Shown: positions 7,663-37,924 of the stretch, piece by piece
Numbering within the stretch: position 1 is the first letter of the stretch
Layout of the letters: every line of letters starts with the position of its first letter
Source: Akkermansia muciniphila
Lineage (GTDB): Bacteria; Verrucomicrobiota; Verrucomicrobiia; Limisphaerales; BJHT01
DNA: 64,000 nt
Direction of reading: 5' to 3'
NCBI GenBank assembly: GCA_945861535.1
Contig: CAMAUZ010000005.1
Span: 72,272 to 136,271 of the forward strand
Position numbers and translations under genes: made by a program
Notes under the pieces: model-generated
Database searches by the model: none
Told to the model about the DNA's origin: nothing
What the model saw: only the letters and a program-made list of their open reading frames with translations

Positions 7663-9492
7663 ATGGCCGACAACAAGAAGCACGTTTACGACGAGAGCAA
7701 AATCAAAACGCTCTCCTCCCTCGAGCACATCCGCCTGCGCACCGGCATGTACATCGGGCGCATCGGCGACGGCTCCAATCACGACGACGGCTGCTACATC
7801 CTGCTCAAGGAGGTCATCGACAACACGATCGACGAATTCATCATGGGCAACGGCAAGGAGGTGCAGATCAAGATCGAGGGCGACACCGTCACCGTGCGCG
7901 ATTTCGGCCGCGGCATCCCGCTCGGCAAAGTCGTGGACTGCGTCTCCCGCATCAACACCGGCGCCAAGTACAACGACGACGTCTTTCAGTTCAGCGTCGG
8001 CCTCAACGGCGTCGGCACCAAGGCCGTCAACGCCCTCTCCCGCGAGTTCTACGTCCGCAGCCATCGCGGCGGGGAATTCGCCGAGGCCACCTTCAAGGCG
8101 GGCGTGCTTAAGTCCGAGAAGAAAGGCACCACCACCGACCCCGACGGCACGCTCATCCGCTTCGTGCCCGACCCGGAGATTTTCAAGAAGAGCGAGTTCC
8201 GCACGGAGTTCGTCGAGAAGCGTCTCCGCCATTATTCCTACCTGAACAGCGGCCTGCGCCTGCTCTTCAACGGCCAGACCTTCCAGTCGCGCAACGGCCT
8301 CCTCGACCTCGTGATGGAAGACCTCGCCACCGACAACAGCGAACCCATCTACCCGCCGCTGCATTACACGAGCAAGATGCTCGAGTTCTGCTTCACCCAC
8401 ACCAACAGCCGCTACGGCGAGACCTTCTACGCCTTCGTCAACGGCCAGTACACCAGCGACGGCGGCACCCACCTCAGCGCCTTCCGCGAGGGCCTGCTCA
8501 AGGCGGTGAACGAACACGCCAAAGCCAGCTACGAAGGCGACGACGTCCGCGAGTGCATGATCGGCGCCGTCGCCATCCGCCTCAAAGACCCGATCTTCGA
8601 ATCGCAAACCAAGAACAAGCTCGGCAACACCGAAATCCGCTCGGAACTCGTCAACAAAGTCCGCGAGGAACTCCTCCACTTCTTCCAGCGCAACAAGGAG
8701 GTCGCCGACAAAATCCTCGCGAAGGTCGAGGACACCAAGCAGCTCCGGAAGGAATTGCAGGACGTGAAGAAGCTCGCCCGCGAGCGCGCCAAGGCCATCA
8801 CGTTGCGTATTCCGCAGCTCAAGGACTGCAAGATCCACTTCGACAAGGCCAAGGACAAAGGCCGCGGCTCGATGGTCTTCATCTGCGAGGGGCAATCCGC
8901 CACCGGCACCATCGTGAGCTGCCGCGACGTCGCCAACCAGGCCCTCTTCACCCTGAAGGGCAAGCCGCTCAACGTCTGGGACCTCAAGCGCGACGTGGTG
9001 TACAAAAACGACGAGATGTACAACCTCATGCGCAGCCTCGACATCGAGGACAACACCGATGGCCTGCGCTACGAAAAGGTCATTCTCGCCACCGACGCCG
9101 ACGTGGACGGCCTGCACATCCGCAACCTGCTCATCACCTACTTCTTCAAATTCTTCGAGGGCGTCATCCAGGAAGGCCATCTCTACGTCCTCGAGACCCC
9201 GCTCTTCCGCGTCCGCAACAAAGACCGCACCATCTATTGCTACAGCGAGGCCGAGCGCGACACCGCCGCGAAAACCCTTGGCGGCAAAGCCGAGATCACG
9301 CGCTTCAAGGGCTTGGGCGAAATCAATCCCAAGGAGTTCAAGCAATTCATCGGCAAAGACATGCGCCTGAGCAAAGTCGAGTTCGCCCCGCGCCACGACT
9401 CCGCGAACATCTTCACCTTCTACATGGGCAAGAACACCCCCGAGCGCAAAGACTACATCATGGAACACCTCGTGGTGCCGGTGGAGGACTGA
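7663..9492 (+). CDS. parE: Type IIA DNA topoisomerase subunit B (topoisomerase IV ParE/GyrB type)
   Basis: A 609-residue ATPase subunit of topoisomerase IV or gyrase. GHKL ATPase motifs: GMYIGRIGDG, EVIDNTIDEF, DFGRGIPLGK and GLNGVGTKAV. TOPRIM: FICEGQSATGTIVSCRD with the catalytic Glu, and DADVDGLHIRNLL for metal binding. RFKGLGEINP follows. The EGQSA-type TOPRIM sequence is typical of the Bacteroidetes/Chlamydiae topoisomerase IV B lineage, not classical GyrB. I start at MADNKKHVYDE; the longer frame upstream is family B repeat. No A subunit follows, so it must be elsewhere. Confidence 0.92.
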   Translation: MADNKKHVYDESKIKTLSSLEHIRLRTGMYIGRIGDGSNHDDGCYILLKEVIDNTIDEFIMGNGKEVQIKIEGDTVTVRDFGRGIPLGKVVDCVSRINTGAKYNDDVFQFSVGLNGVGTKAVNALSREFYVRSHRGGEFAEATFKAGVLKSEKKGTTTDPDGTLIRFVPDPEIFKKSEFRTEFVEKRLRHYSYLNSGLRLLFNGQTFQSRNGLLDLVMEDLATDNSEPIYPPLHYTSKMLEFCFTHTNSRYGETFYAFVNGQYTSDGGTHLSAFREGLLKAVNEHAKASYEGDDVRECMIGAVAIRLKDPIFESQTKNKLGNTEIRSELVNKVREELLHFFQRNKEVADKILAKVEDTKQLRKELQDVKKLARERAKAITLRIPQLKDCKIHFDKAKDKGRGSMVFICEGQSATGTIVSCRDVANQALFTLKGKPLNVWDLKRDVVYKNDEMYNLMRSLDIEDNTDGLRYEKVILATDADVDGLHIRNLLITYFFKFFEGVIQEGHLYVLETPLFRVRNKDRTIYCYSEAERDTAAKTLGGKAEITRFKGLGEINPKEFKQFIGKDMRLSKVEFAPRHDSANIFTFYMGKNTPERKDYIMEHLVVPVED

Positions 9493-9531
9493 GCCTCGAA
9501 AAAACGGGAATCGCTGAACCACGAAGGCGAG

Positions 9532-9640
9532 AAACCACTGACCTGCACTAACTGGCACTAATAGGAAAGAAGCCCGACATCATTCCCCGTTCGGCTTGGC
9601 CTGCTTCCCATTAGTGCCGGTTAGTGCCGGTTAGTGGTTC
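9532..9640. repeat. Imperfect inverted repeat after parE
   Basis: About 33-base arms at 9532-9565 and 9608-9640 (right arm CATTAGTGCCGGTTAGTGCC and onward) are near-complementary. The right arm also contains a direct repeat of GGTTAGTGCC. It could act as a terminator-like hairpin, but no T-tract follows. Confidence 0.55.
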
Positions 9641-9755
9641 CAAATCCCGCGTCCGAGGCAATTACCGTTTCCAGCAGAACGATTGCCGTGTGACTCGTCG
9701 GCAAACTAGCGGAAGAAATCTTCCTCATCCTTTTCTCCCATGCTAATATTCTTCC

Positions 9756-9971
9756 ATGAAAACGCTGCAAATTGACGTGCCCGACCAACTGGCCCTCGAG
9801 GTCGAGGCCGCCGTCAGCCAAGGTGCCTTCGGCGACGTCGGCGAAGTCGTGCGCACGGCCTTGCGCGAATTCATCAGCGGACGCCGGTTCGAATTGCAGG
9901 AGCAACAGCAGCTTGAAGACATCGCCTGGGCGCTTCGGGAAAAGCCGATGAAGCTCGTCCCCGGCGTGTGA
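9756..9971 (+). CDS. ParD/CopG-like ribbon-helix-helix antitoxin, orphan
   Basis: A 71-residue RHH antitoxin: a beta strand MKTLQIDVPDQLALEVEAAV, then the helices GEVVRTALREFISGRRF. It would bind its own operator as a dimer and neutralise a ParE/RelE toxin. No toxin reading frame follows; the next 600 bases are repeats. TAATAT lies six bases before the ATG, a possible -10 element that would make the mRNA leaderless. Confidence 0.75.
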   Translation: MKTLQIDVPDQLALEVEAAVSQGAFGDVGEVVRTALREFISGRRFELQEQQQLEDIAWALREKPMKLVPGV

Positions 9972-10605
9972 CAGAAGCCGATTGATTGCTTCTCAGCCAA
10001 AGCCATTCAGAGCATGGAAGATTCCGAGAAACCACAGCGACGCGATGTACACAGCGCGGCACCGCAACCAAAGCGGAGCGCGACCGTCCCGGTCGCCAGG
10101 GTTGGGGCGGCAAGGGAGCGGTGAAATACTCTACCGAACTCTGCACAGCGTACGCGCTGCGGGCAGAGACGCCCAGTTCCCGTCCCGGAGGGACGCCGGA
10201 GGAGATTAGCCGGGGGCAAGTCCGCCCCCAGCGGACGCCGCCCCCGGAAACGGTGCCGGGTGGCTCCGTGCCCCAACGGGGCATCGAAGAAAACGGCCCG
10301 AGGCGACGAGTGGTGGCGGAAGAACTGTGGGGAGTGCGCCGCAAAAAAACTTCTTCGATGCCCCGCTGGGGCACGGCCCGTTCGGCGGCCCAACCGGGGG
10401 CCGTGCCCGCTGCGCGGGCTTGCCCCCGGCTAATTTCCTGCGGTGTCCCTCCGGGACGAAGAGCAAAGCATTGGTTGGCTGGTAGCTTCTTGGTCACTGA
10501 ATGGTGACCGCGTGGAGCGGATGCAGACCTTTGTTTTTCTCTGTGTTCATCGTGTCTCTGTGGTCATCTCGCAGTTTCCAACCGCATCGTTACGGCTCAG
10601 CCGCT
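9972..10605. other. Gene-free stretch filled by a nested family A composite
   Basis: The outer arms are 10021-10100 (containing ACCACAGCGACGCGATGTAC and a CGGAGCGCGACCG block) and 10536-10570 (TGTTCATCGTGTCTCTGTGG). They enclose the two family A arms listed separately. I see no gene. Confidence 0.6.
10181..10457. repeat. Family A inverted pair, copy 1
   Basis: Left arm 10181-10293: CGTCCCGGAGGGACGCC, then GATTAGCCGGGGGCAAG, then CCCCAACGGGGCATCGAAG. Right arm 10351-10457 is its inverse, starting CTTCGATGCCCCGCTGGGGC and ending GTCCCTCCGGGACG. About 60 unrelated bases separate the arms. Copies 2 and 3 are at 38212 and 44297. Confidence 0.85.
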
Positions 10606-12069
10606 TCACCCCAGAATCCCCTTCACCACTTCCCCATGCACGTCGGTCAGCCGGTGGTGGCGGCCTTGGAATTTGAAGGTGAGCCGCGTGTGGTCGATGC
10701 CCAGGCAATGCAGCAGCGTCGCGTGCAGGTCATGCACATGCACCGGGTCGCTCGCGATGTTGTAGGAGTAATCATCCGTCTCGCCAAACGTCACGCCCGG
10801 CCGAATGCCCCCGCCTGCGAGCCAGAGCGTAAAGCACCGCGGATGATGATCCCGCCCGTAGTCCTCCTTCGTGAGCCGCCCCTGGCAATAAACCGTGCGC
10901 CCGAATTCGCCGCCCCACACGACGAGCGTGTCGTCGAGCAGGCCACGCTGTTTCAAATCCTTAATGAGTCCCGCGCTCGGCTGATCGGTGTCGCGGCACT
11001 GGCCGGCGATCTGCGCGGGCAGCTTCGTGTGCTGATCCCAGCCGCGATGGAAAAGCTGAATGAACCGCACGCCGCGCTCCGCCAGCCGCCGCGCGAGCAG
11101 GCAGTTCGCCGCGAACGTCCCCGGCTTGCGCGACTCGGGGCCATACAGCTCGAACGCGCTTGCCGGTTCGCGCGAGACATCCGTCAACGCCGGCACGCTC
11201 GTTTGCATCCGATACGCCAGCTCGTATTGCGCGATGCGCGTGGCGATCTCCGGATCGCCATATTCGGCGAGCTGCATCCCGTTTAATTTCGCCAGATCGT
11301 CCAGCATCCGCCGCCGCGCCGTCGCATCGAGACCTTCGGGATTCGAGAGGAAAAGGACCGGATCACCGGCGGAGCGGAACTTGATGCCCTGATGCGTCGT
11401 CGGCAAAAAACCGCTGCTCCACAACCGGTCGTAGAGCGGCTGATCCGCTGGATTGCCCGTACCGTTCGACAGCAGCGCGACGAACGCCGGCAGATCGCGG
11501 TTCGCGCTCCCGAGGCCGTAACTGAGCCACGAACCGATGCTCGGCCGCCCCGCGAGCTGCGCGCCCGTCTGGAAAAACGTGATTGCCGGGTCGTGGTTGA
11601 TCGCCTCGGTGTGCATCGTCTTGATGATGCACAAGTCGTCCGCCACGCGCGCCGTGTGCGGCAGCAACTCGCTCAACCACGCCCCGCCGCGCCCATGTTG
11701 CGCAAACCGAAAGCGCGTCGGCGCAATGGGAAAATGCTCCTGGGTCGCCGTCATCCCCGTCAGCCGCTGCCCCCGGCGAATCGAATCCGGCAAATCCGTC
11801 CCGTGCCGCGCCCCGAGCTGCGGCTTGTAGTCGAACAAATCCAACTGCGACGGCGCGCCCGACTGGAACAAATAAATGACCCGCTTCGCCTTCGCCTTGA
11901 AATGCGGCACGCCCGGCAGCCCGCCCGTGGCCGCGGCCGCCGTCGCGGGCGCAGGTGCGGCGACCAACTCCTCATTCATCAACGCCGCGAGCGCCGTGGC
12001 CCCCAGCCCGACGCGGCCGAAGAAATGGCGGCGGTTGATGATGAGGCGAGAGTCAAGGAGCGGATTCAT
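10606..12069 (-). CDS. DUF1501 family protein with Tat-like signal
   Basis: A 487-residue DUF1501 protein, a family of secreted sulfatase/phosphatase-like fold proteins common in PVC bacteria. The N-terminus has [19 protein letters not shown], a twin-arginine-type signal. Family-typical segments are [80 protein letters not shown] and [15 protein letters not shown]. The gene is normally translated just after a DUF1549/DUF1553 gene. Here 0.9 kb with vapBC separates the two. The substrate is unknown. Confidence 0.92.
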
Positions 12070-12075
12070 GGGCGC

Positions 12076-12160
12076 CTATGGTTTGGTGATGGCTTCGTCG
12101 AGGTTCAGGATCAACCCAACCTTCGCTGTGTAAGCCGCCAGCCCACGCAAACCAAGGCGA
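12076..12160 (-). pseudogene. Remnant of a DUF1553-protein 3' end
   Basis: On the minus strand, just before the DUF1501 start, the frame reads LAAYTAKVGLILNLDEAITK followed by one Pro and a stop. The intact gene at 12976 ends LASYTALAGLLLNLDEAITK. The two DNA segments align but differ at many third positions, so this is not a fresh copy. No DUF1553 sequence precedes the fragment beyond about 12160. It is either the original 3' end displaced when vapBC inserted, or the tail of a deleted paralogue. Confidence 0.75.
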
Positions 12161-12244
12161 AAAACCGCATGGAGGCCAAGTTCATTTCGATACCGGCGAG
12201 AAGTTCGGAGCGCACGACCGACGAAGCCCCAGTTGGGCCTGAGC

Positions 12245-12273
12245 TTGATCGTGCGACCCGCACCTCTTAGCCT
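12245..12273 (+). promoter_or_regulatory. Candidate promoter for vapBC (leaderless)
   Basis: TTGATC (12245-12250), 17 bases, TAGCCT (12268-12273). The ATG begins six bases after the -10 hexamer, so transcription would start at or next to the start codon. Confidence 0.45.
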
Positions 12274-12279
12274 CCGGCC

Positions 12280-12549
12280 ATGAGCACCATCACCGCGATT
12301 CTCGAAGCGGACATCGACGGAAGTTTGCACCTGCCGCTCCCGGAGGAGTTGCGCCGCGGCAAAGTCAGGATCACCGCCACGCTCGAATCAGCGGAGGACC
12401 AGCCCAGCGAGGCGGAAATCCAGCGGCAGCGCCGCCTGGGGGAAATCATGGATCGAATCCGGAAACGCAATCCATTCAACGGCATCGCTGACCCGGTGGC
12501 CCGGCAGCGCGAGTTGCGCGAGGATCGTCCACTGCCGCGGAGGACCTGA
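12280..12549 (+). CDS. VapB-like antitoxin
   Basis: An 89-residue small protein directly upstream of a PIN toxin, with a six-base gap. The N-terminus (ITAILEADIDGSLHLPLPEELRRGKVRITATLE) fits a swapped-hairpin/AbrB-like or DUF2281-like antitoxin DNA-binding domain. The C-terminal part (EIQRQRRLGEIMDRIRKRNPF) would wrap the toxin. The family call is mostly from position and size. Confidence 0.7.
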   Translation: MSTITAILEADIDGSLHLPLPEELRRGKVRITATLESAEDQPSEAEIQRQRRLGEIMDRIRKRNPFNGIADPVARQRELREDRPLPRRT

Positions 12550-27205: not shown

Positions 27206-29533
27206 TCACGGCTCGATCATCCGCTTGAACCGTTCGATCACCTGTTTCTGCACGGTCGCATCGAAATGGTTGTACGTGTCCATCTCGGCGAAATCCAACC
27301 GCCCCTCCTGCCCCAGCAGCGAATACACCTTGCGCGCCTCGCCCACACACGCCCGCACGTCGTCGAGATTCGCCTGATAATCCACGCGCGGTGCCGCCAC
27401 CAGCACCGGCCGGGGCGCGAGCAACGCCAGCACCTCGTGATAGTCATACGGAATGCGCGACTCATTGCCCACGAACCCACCCAGCCGCGGCAGCAGCATC
27501 GTCCACTGCGCCCAGCGGGCCACGCCGCCGGTGCTGCGCTCGTTGTTGTCCAACCGCATCGGCGTGAACCCCGCCACCGACACCACGCCCGCGATCCGGT
27601 CATCCAACGCCGCCGCGTGCAACGCCGCCATCGCACCCGTGCCGTAGCCTACGAGGTAAATCCGCTTCGCATCCACCAGCGCCGTGCGCTCGAGCGCATC
27701 CACGGCGGCCTGAATGTCCTGCACCGTTTTCCCGAGCAGCGACCAGTTCGGATAACGCCCGTAGAAACCCGCCGCCTCCGGCACGCGATACCCCTGCCCG
27801 ATCTGATCGAACGCCAGCACGGCGAAGCCCGCCTTCGCCAGCGTGACGTGCGGCGGATCGCCGCGCCGGTAGCTCGGATAATAACCGCCCGCCGGATTCA
27901 TCGGATGCAGCCAGATGATCGCTCCGAGTTTCTTCCCGCCCTTGTCCGCGCCCGCCGGAAAATACAGGTCGCCGTTCACGTAATTGCCGAAGTTCAAACT
28001 CTGCCGCCCGAGGTCCGCCGGCGCCGTCGCGCGCCGCAGCAGCGTGGCCGTGGCAGGGACTTCCTTGCCGTATTCGCCGGGCTGGCTCACGACCCGCGGC
28101 GGCGCGTCACCGAGCACCCAGCGCACCTGCCGTTTCAACTCCTCGCGCCGCTTGTTCCACTCCGGCGCGGTCGTGATGAAATTCGGTTGCCCCGGCGGTT
28201 CGAGCGGATTATCCACGCCGCGCAACGGCAGTAGCTTCGGATCAAACTCCCGTCCCGGCTTGCTCATCACCCACTCGAGATGCCTCGGCAAAATCGGCTC
28301 TTCGCCTGGGTTCAGCGCCGACCGGCCGAACACGGTGTCGAGCCAATCGACGTAGCCCTCGATGTCCTCCGCGCGCGTCTCGTGCCCGCCCGCGCGATAC
28401 CGCAGCCGAAGGCCGTGATGCTCGCCGAGCAGCGAATACGCCTCGCGCGCCGAGTAAAAAGATTGCTCCACCGCCCACACGCTCTCGACCGGGTCGTTGT
28501 GCGCCGTCGAGATCAGGCACGCCCGCGGCGCAATGCACGCCAGCAGGCTGTTTTGGTCCACCGGCAGCTTGTTCTCGCGCCCGGCAAAAAACCGCAGCCG
28601 CGGATGGAACCAATCCGGAAACGCCCGCGTCATCAGCTCGATCCCCTCGCCGAACTGCGACTCGGAAAAATGCCGCCACGGACACGGCCCGCCCGCGCCG
28701 GCGCTGCTCGAAATGGTCGCCGTGATCCGCTCATCCAGCGCCGCCGCGATCAGCGCGAGCTTGCCGTTTCGGGAATGCCCCGTGAGCGCGATCTTCGCCG
28801 CGTCCACCAGCGGCAGCGTCACCAGATAATCAATGCACCGGCTCGCCGCCCACGCGCGCCGTGCCAGCTTGCCCCAGTCGTGCTGCGGATAGAGCGGGAT
28901 GAACGCATCCGTGTCGTCGCGCGAATCCGCGCCCGCATACACGCACCCGATGTAACCGCGGCTCGCCGCGATCAACGCCCAGCGCCGGTGATTGTCCTGT
29001 GTGATGAACACCGGGAAACGCCCCTCGCCCGGGGGAATCAGCAGCTCGACATGCAACCGTCCGCGCCCCTCCGGCCCGAACTCCAGCACGATTTCCTGCA
29101 CCGTCACGCCGTCCTCCGTGCGCGTTTTCATCGACCCAACCTTCACATTGCCCGGCGGCGGCGGCACCGAGCCGATGATGTAACGCTGGCAGAGTTGAAG
29201 AATTTCCGTGCGCCGCGCGGGCCATTGCTCGGGCGTGCGCACGAGGTGGCCGTCGGCGAATTTCATCGGCCCCGGCAGGAACGCCATGCCCGTCATCTTC
29301 TCAAAATCCGGCGGCAGCTCGCCGCTGGCTGCGAGCCATTTCTCCCACGGCTCGCTCTTCGGCAGCAGCCGGCGCAACTCCTCGAGCAACGCCTTGCGTC
29401 GCGCCGGATCGTCCTTGGTTTCCGGGCTGGTCTGCGCCCTCGCCGGTGACGCGCTGATGGCGAGCACGAAGGTCAGAAGCAGAGCGCCGCCCAAACGGAT
29501 GGCACGGAGAAAACGGGGGCAAATCAGTTTCAT
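27206..29533 (-). CDS. CE15-type (glucuronoyl esterase-like) hydrolase fused to a second alpha/beta hydrolase
   Basis: A 775-residue exported protein (signal ending ASPARA). Domain 1 (about 60-440) matches carbohydrate esterase family 15: nucleophile S254 in TGHSRNGKLALIAAALDERI, PCPWRHFSESQFGEG, and HNDPVESVWAVEQSFYSAREAY. These enzymes cleave lignin-carbohydrate esters or related uronate esters. Domain 2 (about 480-775) is another alpha/beta hydrolase, but its nucleophile elbow reads VGYGTGAMAALHAAALDDRI with Gly631 where Ser is expected, so it is probably not a Ser hydrolase. I start at MKLICPRF; the upstream extension is family C repeat. Confidence 0.85.
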   Translation of the reverse strand: MKLICPRFLRAIRLGGALLLTFVLAISASPARAQTSPETKDDPARRKALLEELRRLLPKSEPWEKWLAASGELPPDFEKMTGMAFLPGPMKFADGHLVRTPEQWPARRTEILQLCQRYIIGSVPPPPGNVKVGSMKTRTEDGVTVQEIVLEFGPEGRGRLHVELLIPPGEGRFPVFITQDNHRRWALIAASRGYIGCVYAGADSRDDTDAFIPLYPQHDWGKLARRAWAASRCIDYLVTLPLVDAAKIALTGHSRNGKLALIAAALDERITATISSSAGAGGPCPWRHFSESQFGEGIELMTRAFPDWFHPRLRFFAGRENKLPVDQNSLLACIAPRACLISTAHNDPVESVWAVEQSFYSAREAYSLLGEHHGLRLRYRAGGHETRAEDIEGYVDWLDTVFGRSALNPGEEPILPRHLEWVMSKPGREFDPKLLPLRGVDNPLEPPGQPNFITTAPEWNKRREELKRQVRWVLGDAPPRVVSQPGEYGKEVPATATLLRRATAPADLGRQSLNFGNYVNGDLYFPAGADKGGKKLGAIIWLHPMNPAGGYYPSYRRGDPPHVTLAKAGFAVLAFDQIGQGYRVPEAAGFYGRYPNWSLLGKTVQDIQAAVDALERTALVDAKRIYLVGYGTGAMAALHAAALDDRIAGVVSVAGFTPMRLDNNERSTGGVARWAQWTMLLPRLGGFVGNESRIPYDYHEVLALLAPRPVLVAAPRVDYQANLDDVRACVGEARKVYSLLGQEGRLDFAEMDTYNHFDATVQKQVIERFKRMIEP

Positions 29534-29600
29534 GCCCGCGAGCATAGCCTTGTCGGAAATTGTGTGGCGAAGGGATTCTCGCCCGTGCGTCCGCCGCTTC

Positions 29601-29730
29601 AGTAGGGAAGCGTTGCGCGCGTCCCTAACCTTTCCGTGCCCCGCCGCTCCCGCCTGAAACCCAATGCCTGCGAAAACCTTCACGCGCCCGACCGGGAAAA
29701 ATGCAGGGCCGCGCGCAACGCGGCCCTACC
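29601..29730. repeat. Family C unit 1
   Basis: GTAGGGAAGCGTTGCGCGCG at 29602, then a spacer shared with the other copies (CGCGCCCGACCGGGAA near its end), then GGGCCGCGCGCAACGCGGCC ending CTACC at 29730. It fills the 332-base gap between two divergently transcribed genes. Confidence 0.8.
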
Positions 29731-29865
29731 ACGAGGCCCACTCCCGCCTTGAATTCTCCCGCCCATGCAGACACATTTTCACTCCAAGAACCCTGAACTC
29801 TCCGCCGTGCGTTCGTCGCGGCGGGCCACCGCCGGAGGCCCCGATGCCCCCGGCAATTGCTGCTT

Positions 29866-31737
29866 ATGAAAACGCTTCTCACCCTTGTTCTTGGCGCGTG
29901 GACTTTCCTCCTCGCCACCTGCCCTCTCTCCCTCGTATCCGGCGCGACGATCGACGTGCTCCTGGCCACCGACCAGACCCCAGGCGATGCCGGGCTTGCC
30001 CGGGTCTTGTCGGTCGCCGGTGGGTTCTGGGACCGGGGCGGACGCGTGTGGATGCAGGGCCTCTATCGGCCCGACGCGCCCAGCATCGTGGAACGAAACG
30101 CGGTCTGGCTCTGGACCGCGCCGGCCGCCGGGACCAGGGAATTCTATCGCGACGGCAATTCCGTGCCTTATTACGTGAGCGGCGTCGCGGGGCCGCCGAT
30201 CCCGATGTCCGTTCCAAGATACGCAGCGGGGTTCGGGGGCTACGTGCCGCCCGCGAACTACGCGGTTTTCAGCAGCGGGGTCGCCGGCGTCCCGGCGGCG
30301 GAGGGGATGATCCGGGCGCTGTGGACCCGGCGGCTCGATCTGCCCGGTGACATTGCCGCCGCGTACTTCGTGGTGAACGATCTCGAAAGCCATCGGGACG
30401 GCGTGCGGGCGTTCGTCCGCCCGCAGATCGACGATGCCATCATCCGCCTGCGCGCCTCCACGGCGGGTCTCGACACCAATTACTTTTTCACCACCAGCGA
30501 CGGCGGCGGGGTCCAGAAATACTTCAACAGCGTCATCGACGAGCCGGTGAGCGGCAACAGCGGCAACCTCGTCTTTCAGGCGCGCGCCGATCTCACGGGG
30601 GTCATTTCCGGTCTCTCCAACGTCGTCCGGGTCGTCGCGGCCAGTTCGCAACTGGGGCTGCCGAGCCTTCCCGGCGGACTCTATTCCTCACTCCGGATTC
30701 TCGGAGTTGATCCCGGTGAAAACCTGCTCTGGGAAGCCGGCACCAACGGCGGAACCGTCGTGCTCCGCGGCGAGCCGGGCGCGTGGATGCCGCTGCTCGG
30801 GCCAGGCATGCCCGCGCCCCCGAGCCGCGCCAGCGCGCCTTCCCCCACGTCTCCGCTGGGCACCGTCGGGACGGTGGGGCTGGTGGCCCACGGCGCCGCG
30901 TTCTTCGCGGAAGCCACCTACGACGCGTCCGCCGGCGTGCTCGCAGGACGGGCCGCGCTGCTGCGGCACGACGGGAGCGCTCCCCAGATTTTTGCCCTCG
31001 AAGGCGAGGCGGTGGAGAGCACGGTTTCTGGTGGCGTGCTCCAACGCTTCACGCCCGGCGGCTACGACTGGCCCGACACCAATCTCGTCGCCTTCTACGG
31101 CCCGGTCCGCGGCGGCACCTTTTCGTTTGAAAGCCAGGCCCTGCTGCTCGCCAGCACCGGGCGGCTCCGGCAGCTCGCGCGCCAGCATGATCCCCTGCCC
31201 GTGCCCGCCAATGTCGATCGCATCTTCCAATTCCGCTTTCCCGTCCTCTCGGCGAAACCCGACGACACCGTGGCCTTCGCCGCGGAAGTCGAGTTCCTCG
31301 ACGGACGGCGGCAGGAAATTTTGTACACCGTCACGGTGGGACCGACCAATCGCTACGACGTGATCCTTTCCGCTGGCGACACGTTCAGCGTGTCCACGCC
31401 CGACGGCCCGCGCACGGTGACCATCGCGCGATTCAACGGCGCGGCGTGGCGGCCGGGCACCTTCGACAAGCTGCTGGTCAGCGTGGATCTCAGCGTCGCG
31501 GGCACTTCCGCCGTGCTGTTGGTGGATCCTTCGATCCCGGTGCGGATGGCGGCGAGTCTCGCGGCCGGGCGGTTGCTTCTTCGCTGGCCGACCGGTCCGG
31601 GCGGAATCATCGAATCCGCGGTTTCGCTCGCGCCGCCGATCTGGTCACCCGTGACGCTGCCGGTCACTGAACGCGACGGCTTTCGGGAACTGGAGGTGGA
31701 CACGGACGGCGTCCTACGCTTCTTCCGCATCCGGTAG
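29866..31737 (+). CDS. Large secreted protein of unknown function
   Basis: A 623-residue exported protein with a signal peptide (MKTLLTLVLGAWTFLLATCP...SGA). I recognise no catalytic motif. It looks beta-rich: PGDAGLARVLSVAGGFWDRGG, AEGMIRALWTRRLDLPGDIA and LDGRRQEILYTVTVGPTNRY suggest sequential beta modules. The end, LLLRWPTGPGGIIESAVSLA and onward to FFRIR, resembles the short C-terminal module that closes many Verrucomicrobia secreted proteins. Its stop codon TAG lies inside a family C repeat, so the C-terminus may have been set by repeat insertion. Confidence 0.7.
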   Translation: MKTLLTLVLGAWTFLLATCPLSLVSGATIDVLLATDQTPGDAGLARVLSVAGGFWDRGGRVWMQGLYRPDAPSIVERNAVWLWTAPAAGTREFYRDGNSVPYYVSGVAGPPIPMSVPRYAAGFGGYVPPANYAVFSSGVAGVPAAEGMIRALWTRRLDLPGDIAAAYFVVNDLESHRDGVRAFVRPQIDDAIIRLRASTAGLDTNYFFTTSDGGGVQKYFNSVIDEPVSGNSGNLVFQARADLTGVISGLSNVVRVVAASSQLGLPSLPGGLYSSLRILGVDPGENLLWEAGTNGGTVVLRGEPGAWMPLLGPGMPAPPSRASAPSPTSPLGTVGTVGLVAHGAAFFAEATYDASAGVLAGRAALLRHDGSAPQIFALEGEAVESTVSGGVLQRFTPGGYDWPDTNLVAFYGPVRGGTFSFESQALLLASTGRLRQLARQHDPLPVPANVDRIFQFRFPVLSAKPDDTVAFAAEVEFLDGRRQEILYTVTVGPTNRYDVILSAGDTFSVSTPDGPRTVTIARFNGAAWRPGTFDKLLVSVDLSVAGTSAVLLVDPSIPVRMAASLAAGRLLLRWPTGPGGIIESAVSLAPPIWSPVTLPVTERDGFRELEVDTDGVLRFFRIR

Positions 31738-32095
31738 GGACGCGTTGCGCGCGTCCCTGACTTTTTCCTGTCCGCCGCGCCCGCCTGCAAACCAACGCCC
31801 GCGCCAATCCCCACGCGCCCCTTCCTCGGTAGGGATGCGCTGCTGCGCGTCCCTAACTGTCCCCGTACCGCGACGTCCGCCTGCAACCACAGCCCACGCA
31901 AATCATCACGCGCCCGACCGGGAAGATTGCTCGGCCGCGCGCAACGCGGCCCTACCACGATGCCCTCGCCTCGGTAGGGACGCGTTGCGCGCGTCCCTGA
32001 CTTTTTCCTGTCCGCCGCGCCCGCCTGCAAACCAACGCCCGCGCCAATCCCAACGCACCCAAACGGAAGATTGCACGGCCGCGCGCAACGCGGCC

Positions 32096-32100
<5 letters not shown>
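31732..32100. repeat. Family C cluster, units 2-4
   Basis: Unit heads GTAGGGACGCG or GTAGGGATGCG at about 31733, 31829 and 31974; closing arms GGCCGCGCGCAACGCGGCCC at about 31932 and 32078. Unit 2 lacks its closing arm. The segment from 31732 repeats nearly identically at 31974. Both flanking genes end on TAG triplets belonging to the outer GGTAGGG ends (31735-31737 and, reversed, 32096-32098). Confidence 0.85.
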
Positions 32101-35392
<3,292 letters not shown>

Positions 35393-36148
35393 GGGTGAAG
35401 TGGGGGTGGTGCTTGGGCCCAGGAGCGCGGGCGGCCCGCCCGCAAGTTGCACCACGTAGGTAGGGCGCGCCTGTCCTCAGCACGCCGCGAACGGTGTGGA
35501 TGTCCCACCGGCGCGCTGAGGACAGACGCGCCCTACCAATCGTTCCGAAAGTTCCTGCCGGGACCGCTGTAACAAGTAGCGCTTCTGTCTCCCTCGCCCC
35601 GTGAGGCACGAACGGGGAGAGGGCCGGGTAGAGGGGTGCTTCACCCTTGCGAGTGGCCCAACCGTGCGGAGCGCCTCCTCTCCCCGGCCCTCTCCTCCGT
35701 TCCGAACGGAGGAGAGGGAGCCGGAGGCCCTGGGATGGACTGCACGAACTTTCGCAAAGCCTGATACCAGCGGCAGCGTCCCGCCCCCGAGTTGCACCGC
35801 GTGGGTAGGGCGCGCCTGTCCTCAGCGCGCCGCGAACGGTGTGGACGTCCCACCGGCGCGCTGGGGACAGACGCGCCCTACCAATCGTTTCGAAAGTTCC
35901 TGCCGGGACCGCTGTAACAAGTAGCGCTTCTGTCTCCCTCGCCCCGTGAGGCACGAACGGGGCGAGGGCCGGGTAGAGGGGTGCTTCACCCTTGCGAGTG
36001 GCCCAACCGTGCGGAGCGCCTCCTCTCCCCGGCCCTCTCCTCCGTTCCGAACGGAGGAGAGGGAGACCGAGACCCCGGTGCGGACTGCAGGAATTTTCGC
36101 AAAGCCTGATACCAGCGCCGACACCGATGCCAATCTTACGCATGGTTC
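35393..36148. repeat. Family H: 345-bp direct tandem repeat between cusB and cusA
   Basis: Copy 1 is about 35443-35787, copy 2 about 35788-36118. Landmarks recur exactly 345 bases apart, for example TAGGGCGCGCCTGTCCTCAG at 35461 and 35806. Within each copy are two inverted pairs: GCGCCTGTCCTCAG with CTGAGGACAGACGCGCCCTA, and CTCTCCTCCGTTCCGAACGG, a self-palindrome. No credible gene; the long minus-strand frame here is repeat translation. Confidence 0.85.
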
Positions 36149-37924
36149 TCACGGCACCTCCTCCCCGCACTCGAGCATCTCGGCGCCGTAGTACGGATTG
36201 CGCAGCGGCCCCTGCAGTTGCACCCAGAACGACGTCACGCCCGGCTTCGGCGCCATCGGGCATTTGTAAATCTTCACGTTCTTGAACTCCGCCCGCCCCC
36301 GCAGCGCCTGCGCGAACTCGACCGTCACCGTGCTGAACGGCAGGAACGTCCGCCGCGCCGCCTCCAAATCCTTCGCCGTCGCCAGCTCCCCGACCGCCGC
36401 GAGTTTCCGCACCAGCTTCGCCCCCGGGGACGCCTCGGGAAACCCCGCCAGCAGCGCCGGCAGAACCGGGCGCAACCGCGCCGCATGCTGGTTGAAGTCC
36501 GCCAACTTGTCCGCCGCCAGCGCACCCGTGAGCGCATCCGCGACTGCGAAAAAATCCCGCGCCGCCTTCGTTTGTGTCGCGGTAAGTTCGGGCAACGCCG
36601 CGGGTTTTTCTCGCTGCGCGACCTCGCCCGCCGCCCTCGGCACCGGAGCCGCCGCGCCCGCCGACTCCACCGCCTGATTCAACTGCGCCTGCGAATCGAT
36701 CAGCATGTTGCCCTGCGTCACCACGCGCTCGCCCTCGGCGATGCCGCCGAGCAATTCCCACGCATCATCGGCGAGCCGGCCCAGCTTGAGCTTGCGCTGC
36801 TCGAATGTGCCGCCGCCCTTGTCCACATACGCGAGCGCCTGCCCGGCCGACGACAACACCGCGCTGCGCGGAATCGCCAGCACGTCGGGCACCTCGACGC
36901 GCACGAGGCCCTCCGCATAAAGCCGGTGAAACAACTCGCGCCGCGGCCGGCCGTCGCGCTCGACGAGCGGGTTGTCGAGTTCCACGCGGATTTTCGCCGT
37001 GCGCGTTTTCTCCTCGAGGTTCGGATCGATGAACGTGATCGGCGCGGTGAAGACCTTGCCCGGCACCGATGGCGTCGTGATCTCGACGGTCTGCCCCGCC
37101 CGCAGCCAGACGAGGTCCTGTTCGTAGGCGTCGAACTTGAACCACATCTTCGCGAAGTCCGCGATTTCGAAGAGCTTCTCGCCCTCCTTCACATACTGGC
37201 CCTCGTAAACCGCGCGCTCGACGACCGTGCCGGACATGGGCGCGACGATCTCGGAGAGATAGTTGGTGCCGCGCTTTTGCCCCAGCGCCGCCACCTGCAC
37301 CGGCGTTAATCCCAGCCGCAGCAGCCGCTGTCCCGCCGCCTCGAGCAACTGGCCCTGCTCGCCGCGCAAACCCGCGCGCGCGAGCGGCGAATCAGGCCGC
37401 GCCAGTGTGGTGTATTCGCGTTCCGCCGCCAGCAGCGCGGGGCTGTAGAACGTCGCCAGCGGCTGCCCCGCGGTCACTTCCGCGCCGAGATAATTCACGA
37501 ACAGGCGCTCGATGCGGCCCTCCAAATACGCCGAGATGCGGCGGTGGCGCGTGTCGTTGTCATCAATCGTACCCGCCACCCGCAGCGTCCGCCGCAGCGT
37601 GCGCCGCCCGAGCGGCTCGGCCTGGACATTCATCACCTGCACGCTGTTGGTGCCGAGCGCGACCACGCCGGCGGTGACGACGAAGCCCGATTCGCCCGCA
37701 TACACCGGCACGAGGTCCATGCCGCATATCGTGCATTTGCCGGCCCGGTCGGACTTGATCCACGGGTGCATCGGGCTTTGATAAAAGCGCACCTCGCGTG
37801 CGCCGGGCCCGGACTTCGCCGCGCCCGCCGCCCCCGCCGCGGGCTGACGTTTGCCAAAGAACCAACCACCCGTCGCCGCAAGCGCGGCGACGAGCACCAG
37901 CAGGAGAAATGTTTTTGCGTTCAT
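36149..37924 (-). CDS. cusB: CusB-type efflux RND periplasmic adaptor with N-terminal metal-binding domain
   Basis: A 591-residue membrane-fusion protein linking CusA to CusC. The N-terminal TM anchor is LLLVLVAALAATGGWFFG. A heavy-metal-binding domain follows (about 45-75): YQSPMHPWIKS, GKCTICGMDLVPVY. Then the barrel-sandwich/helical/beta-barrel core: AYLEGRIERLFVNYLGAEVT, IVAPMSGTVVERAVYEGQYV, GEKLFEIADFAKMWF. The C-terminal region (about 455-591) is a DUF3347-like helical domain ending YKCPMAPKPGVTSFW, a second Cys/Met metal site. Downstream of cusC, upstream of cusA. Confidence 0.93.
   Translation of the reverse strand: MNAKTFLLLVLVAALAATGGWFFGKRQPAAGAAGAAKSGPGAREVRFYQSPMHPWIKSDRAGKCTICGMDLVPVYAGESGFVVTAGVVALGTNSVQVMNVQAEPLGRRTLRRTLRVAGTIDDNDTRHRRISAYLEGRIERLFVNYLGAEVTAGQPLATFYSPALLAAEREYTTLARPDSPLARAGLRGEQGQLLEAAGQRLLRLGLTPVQVAALGQKRGTNYLSEIVAPMSGTVVERAVYEGQYVKEGEKLFEIADFAKMWFKFDAYEQDLVWLRAGQTVEITTPSVPGKVFTAPITFIDPNLEEKTRTAKIRVELDNPLVERDGRPRRELFHRLYAEGLVRVEVPDVLAIPRSAVLSSAGQALAYVDKGGGTFEQRKLKLGRLADDAWELLGGIAEGERVVTQGNMLIDSQAQLNQAVESAGAAAPVPRAAGEVAQREKPAALPELTATQTKAARDFFAVADALTGALAADKLADFNQHAARLRPVLPALLAGFPEASPGAKLVRKLAAVGELATAKDLEAARRTFLPFSTVTVEFAQALRGRAEFKNVKIYKCPMAPKPGVTSFWVQLQGPLRNPYYGAEMLECGEEVP

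Follow-up and report, generated by a model that had tools for sequence, protein, structure and literature searches.

In the window, by which we mean the whole 64,000-nt stretch of DNA that was analysed, two convergent genes end within an array of repeats of a single family, family C (Table 1). The plus-strand protein is predicted to be secreted; its translation has a hydrophobic N-terminus, its C-terminal ~95 aa form a domain common to other proteins of the order, and a Pfam search gave no match for it. The same search identified the product of the minus-strand gene, cusA, as an AcrB/CusA-type RND pump. The last codons read CGC ATC CGG TAG in the plus-strand ORF and GAA CAG AGG TAG in the minus-strand one, and at both gene ends the TAG stands in the middle of a GGTAGGG, with a hairpin starting at the very next base. 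Arms 1 and 5 of the array, which hold these two stops, face outward, so that both genes reach GTAG first. The original prediction had placed both TAGs within the GGTAGGG of outward-facing arms and had proposed that the repeats supply the stop codons of the two genes; the window sequence and its ORFs confirm the positions exactly, and the repeats do supply both stops.

Table 1. Genes, stop codons and repeat arms around the convergent gene ends (positions in the window; G001 is a sister species).
Feature	Position	Strand	Remarks
Head-outward family C pair	29601..29730	.	heads 29602 + / 29729 -; upstream of secreted-protein gene
Putative secreted protein, 623 aa	start 29857 or 29866, end 31737	+	stop in REP head
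REP arm 1	31733..31762	+	head 31734; GGTAGGG, hairpin AGGGACGCG-TTGCG-CGCGTCCCT, then T-rich tail; -20 kcal/mol, z -3.9
TAG stop of secreted-protein gene	31735..31737	+	inside GGTAGGG; from GTAG head of REP arm 1
REP arm 2	31828..31858	+	head 31829; GGTAGGGATGCGCTGCTGCGCGTCCC
REP arm 3	31928..31956	-	head 31955; GGTAGGGCCGCGTTGCGCGCGGCC
REP arm 4	31973..32002	+	head 31974; within arm 1 copy
Head-outward REP pair (BIME unit), 128 bp	31973..32100	.	orthologous to G001:C10:8987-9114
REP arm 5	32071..32100	-	head 32099; GGTAGGGCCGCGTTGCGCGCGGCCGTGC; holds cusA stop
TAG stop of cusA	32096..32098	-	inside GGTAGGG; from GTAG head of REP arm 5
cusA-like RND efflux pump gene	32096..35392, ORF open to 35455	-	PF00873; REP TAG stop; start 35392 by our own gene caller, ORF itself 32096..35455

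Five REP arms lie between the genes, and the 89 nt at 31972-32060 match the stretch 31732-31820, which holds arm 1, at 98% identity. The secreted-protein gene has REP pairs on both sides. The folding energies of four of the arms are -20, -21.1, -23.4 and -18.6 kcal/mol (z -2.4 to -5.3). The motif GTAGGGMCGCG occurs five times in the window compared with 0.12 expected from shuffling, and this expectation, with the genome copy number set against a reversed control (see below), ruled out a chance recurrence of GGTAGGG. Together with its T-rich tail, arm 1 resembles a terminator for the plus-strand gene, and four terminator-like sites were found in 651 nt compared with 0.5 in shuffles. Rfam gave nothing for the array; its 10 weak matches in 29000-37000, all below the gathering score, lay outside it. 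Upstream of cusA we also observed two pairs of GTAGGGCGCG-type heads (35460/35536 and 35805/35881), with a repeat spacing of 345 bp.

Family C is a GTAG-type REP/BIME family, built of a GTAG and a GC-rich hairpin and often arranged in head-outward pairs of ~128 bp. The GTAG stands at the 5' foot, outside the stem and directly before the hairpin, and copy number falls in the range of tens to hundreds: the 16-base core GGTAGGGMCGCGYTGC has 119 strict copies (62 + 57) in the 7.94-Mb genome, compared with 1 for the reversed control. Directly before perfect hairpins GTAG was 17.7-fold over-represented in 1.87 Mb of the genome, second among all tetramers after GTAC (18.9-fold). Pairs of opposite orientation were frequent, 15 of the 25 head-outward pairs closer than 400 nt being spaced 120-129 nt, and successive pairs in arrays were separated by 10-29 nt. 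The location was the intergenic, gene-3'-end one expected of such REPs, with 92 of the 106 GTAGGG hairpin heads intergenic, 10 in genes and 4 at stops. The sister species G001 carries 83 GGTAGGGMCGCG, and some other genera of the order 18-34 GGTAGGGMCGCG.

These properties match the GTAG-type REPs as they are described in the text of Di Nocera, De Gregorio and Rocco 2013 (PMC3733652): an unpaired GTAG at one foot, a 6-13 bp stem and a short loop, dimers or clusters mostly just past gene 3' ends, presence in Verrucomicrobia (Opitutus terrae is given there as rich in GTAG repeats) and TAG stops, the REP termini often providing the TAG stop to flanking ORFs. Going by the paper's text, the family C sequence itself is apparently different from theirs. 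Alternating orientation, uniform spacing and tandem arrays are likewise shared with BIMEs/REPINs, as characterised in Nunvar 2010 (PMC2817692), whereas the 60-70 bp spacing given for REP pairs of Pseudomonas in PMC3390384 differs from the ~120-128 nt of head-outward pairs in family C. The genome (96.6% complete) has nine Y1_Tnp matches, and a RAYT flanked by the same repeat was not found, no family C head lying within 1.5 kb of any of the nine Y1 transposase genes; two of the nine have other GTAG hairpins nearby. Linkage of REPs to a RAYT is an association and not a strict requirement, and several REP families are described as RAYT-poor or RAYT-unlinked in PMC3733652 and PMC3390384.

Some further observations concern the distribution of these repeats. 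GTAG palindromes of the kinds GTAGGGCGCGGTGTCCTCACCGCGCC and GTAGCTCGACATTCCAATGTCGAG occur inside long predicted genes in both orientations (L031, L039; contigs C3, C4, C5, C13, C72 and C80 of G000, the genome to which the window belongs), and the GTAGCTCGACATTCCAATGTCGAG kind is also found around a Y1 transposase gene (L039). Four REP pairs stand in tandem at G000:C44:1663-2112 with a 140-bp period. The strict family C core is not listed for the long G000 contigs C1, C6, C7 and C8, and many copies are on other contigs.

The frequency with which REP heads supply stops was assessed in the 1.87-Mb sample, where our own simple codon-usage caller gave 1220 genes (stops: 791 TGA, 217 TAA and 179 TAG) and which contains 88 of the 119 core heads. 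The nearest upstream gene presents its stop to the head in 57 cases and its start in 26, and 5 heads have no such gene. Among the 57 head-facing genes, 18 stop 5-30 nt before the TAG (positions -30..-5, 26 positions), 6 stop exactly at it and 1 more than 60 nt beyond, while none stops 1-60 nt inside the head. Exact overlap, which thus concerns 6 of the 88 heads (~7%), exceeds the local density of stops: with 6 at a single position and 18 spread over 26, the Poisson P is 8.5e-5, and the excess persisted for genes of at least 450 bp with a score of 30 (5 exact against 17, P 5.8e-4) and for genes of 900 bp with a score of 50 (4 against 16, P 3.7e-3), although the numbers are small, at 4-6 exact cases. 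Every in-frame insertion point in the last codons contributes to the peak at zero distance, which for this reason does not in itself require selection. Genes that enter heads do so in the TAG frame in 6 of 7 cases (P 0.007 against one third), and in 5 of 6 (P 0.018) and 4 of 5 (P 0.045) under stricter and strictest gene filters.

Besides the two genes in the window, the exact overlaps involve a D-aminoacylase-like amidohydrolase (contig C22), a kelch/NANM protein (C60; PF24996), a 217-aa protein (C43; its weak M50B match fell short of the Pfam cut-off) and a doubtful 312-bp ORF (C55). Counts were made both with the 16-base core and with a hairpin-strict family definition; under the latter only the 4 of 106 GTAGGG heads mentioned above overlap a stop, one of them the doubtful 312-bp ORF, and this definition missed degenerate copies and the overlaps on C60 and C43. 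A strong genome-wide stop enrichment of REP GTAGs over other GTAGs was sought and not found: over all GTAGs, 6 of 199 in REPs and 90 of 5774 others are stops (odds ratio 1.96, P 0.14). Family C GTAGs are not raised as stops among non-genic GTAGs either, since the counts there are 6 of 173 and 90 of 1155 (odds ratio 0.43, P 0.04), in a control weakened by a background class that includes degenerate REPs. In G001 the overlap is seen for 2 of 29 head-facing genes, of which one is a partial 285-bp ORF, and the peak is weak (P 0.06); in four other genera of the order (G040, G052, G011, G003; 85 heads) none of 26 nearby stops overlaps a head. Overlap no higher than chance, the outcome that was to count against the original prediction, is therefore not what we see relative to local stop density, and is what we see relative to other non-genic GTAGs.

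Comparison with relatives indicates how little the protein ends have changed. Here cusA ends ...KREQR*, and its ortholog in G001 (97% identical) ends ...RREAQASR*, three residues longer, both at a REP TAG. The readable ends of 14 other relatives are TGA in 10, TAA in 3 and TAG in 1, none of them at a REP; one relative truncated by its contig end and two distant relatives were left out. After a conserved LRE the tail of cusA measures 8 residues here, 11 in G001 and 9-27 in those 14 relatives. The secreted protein has no ortholog in G001, where the only match was a weak one to its last domain (E 8.8e-5), but all 11 readable homologs of this domain stop 1-4 residues after our last Arg, ending FFRLRRP*, FYRLRQL* and similar where the protein here ends FFRIR*. 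The amidohydrolase ends ...RAPLSR* at a REP TAG in both species, with 4 residues after RA compared with 3-7 in seven closer relatives. A REP-supplied TAG is thus kept in the sister species at two of three comparable genes, cusA and the amidohydrolase. The repeat also determines the last residue, which is Arg or Trp owing to the YGG in front of TAG. Because the REP stops fall within a few residues of the relatives' stops and in variable tails, the stop has been replaced and the protein not shaped, so that the proposal that repeat insertion fixed both C-termini holds for the supply of the stops and not for the shaping of the ends.

The REP-stop of cusA, as part of its REP unit, predates the split from the sister species. 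Window positions 31973-35395 are collinear with G001:C10:9114-5683 without interruption (93.9%), and the outer edge of the REP pair marks the end of the alignment. On the far side of that pair G001 has a large convergent gene (9133-12538), whose ortholog lies on G000 contig C42 (3862-7377, 90.9%) in an alignment that likewise runs through a REP pair at the gene end. In the two species of the genus, synteny was thus seen to break exactly at the REP array, with REP pairs on both halves (31973; G001:C10:9114; G000:C42:7377). Because of this break, the pairing of cusA with the secreted-protein gene at one array is probably secondary, and the secreted-protein gene probably joined separately, gene to array or array to gene, by a rearrangement that broke at the REP array; the break itself reflects either such a rearrangement or a misassembly at the repeat. 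A clean empty/filled REP site between the two sister species was not found; the comparison gave shared sites, diverged flanks and one shortened array, and several candidates from the empty-site alignments (cases h, i and m) were rejected as chance GGTAGGG heads inside genes. The shortened array, at G000:C47:13448, is ~149 bp shorter than its counterpart at G001:C12:12195-12320, as if deleted between direct GTAGGGCCGCG repeats.

We hypothesise that a REP lands in the last codons of a gene and survives mainly when its TAG is in frame, which we consider the probable course of events. REPs accumulate just beyond gene ends, and some would have inserted into the last codons, ahead of the native stop. 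A gene entering the unpaired 5' foot YGGTAG in one of the three frames stops there with Arg (CGG/AGG) or Trp (TGG) as its last residue, and such insertions would mainly survive because the protein then ends only a few residues from its usual end; either of the other frames would lead the gene into the hairpin. Both the order of events, with insertion first and the native stop displaced, and the survival filter are what we infer. The native stop could instead have come first, a transposase having inserted REPs next to a GTAG-like target of which the TAG was part. For IS200/IS605 enzymes the insertion point is 3' of a short, fixed tetranucleotide. In the 59 heads that have no REP on their left, TCNYG is still conserved ahead of GTAG, a non-random context that could reflect target preference. 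This order nevertheless appears unlikely, given that a native G-TAG is not the rule among the cusA relatives and that the majority of heads near genes follow a stop by 5-30 nt whatever its type, including TGA. It is quite unlikely, too, that the REPs landed just past native stops that were later lost, with translation continuing to the REP TAG. The 18 genes that stop 5-30 nt before a head are one mutation away from this when in frame, but the secreted protein ends before its homologs, not after them, and neither cusA nor the amidohydrolase is longer than in its relatives.

We also considered that the overlap might be kept for regulation, a stop and a strong hairpin within 2 nt slowing ribosome release or ending transcription. 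According to a statement in PMC12306157 that cites another study, REPs located within 15 nt of a stop cause ribosomes to stall in E. coli and reduce translation; family C resembles these in the distance of its hairpin from the stop and differs in that the stop lies inside the repeat. The terminator-like form of arm 1, the excess of such sites over shuffles and the conservation of two REP-stops between species would fit a regulatory role, which we regard as doubtful: the conservation concerns a single species pair at 90-97% identity, and the REP-stops may simply not have had time to be lost. A last concern is that metagenome assembly joined unrelated sequences at the repeat: synteny with the sister breaks exactly at the array, and both genomes resemble metagenome bins, with 169 and 730 contigs. 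We hold this to be very improbable, since the gene-to-arm junctions lie within one read length and those of cusA and the amidohydrolase recur in an independent assembly; an artefact could falsify only that the two genes are paired at the same array.

Insertion into the last codons with survival in the TAG frame is to be distinguished from the further suggestion that the element's ends have themselves been selected as harmless stops at gene ends. That suggestion was not borne out, with 6 of 88 heads in exact overlap, no rise over non-genic GTAGs and 0 of 26 in the four other genera; what stands of it is that overlap exceeds the local stop density and that the TAG frame is in excess, and selection for harmless ends is unproven. 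GTAG is the general signature of this repeat superfamily across many phyla, and a role as stop in the present genome does not account for that. One could imagine the 5' edge as an evolved soft-landing cassette, and the persistence of GTAG as partly owed to its being a stop codon. TCNYGGTAG would read Ser-(Arg or Trp)-stop in one frame, a second frame would meet TGA or TAA at the far side of y-type arms, and with the hairpin coming next, insertions at gene ends would cost the host little; we consider this scenario very doubtful.

The finding is a new example of an observation published in 2013, where it stands as a remark in the text of PMC3733652, and to this remark it adds one lineage, a count of the overlap against controls, and a comparison of conservation and C-termini. 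It offers a clear and countable case in which a mobile repeat takes over a basic gene signal and leaves the protein almost unaffected, and the matched sister-species pairs offer material for dating stop replacements. If the excess of the TAG frame holds true for curated genomes, it would reveal how REP insertions at gene ends are filtered by selection.
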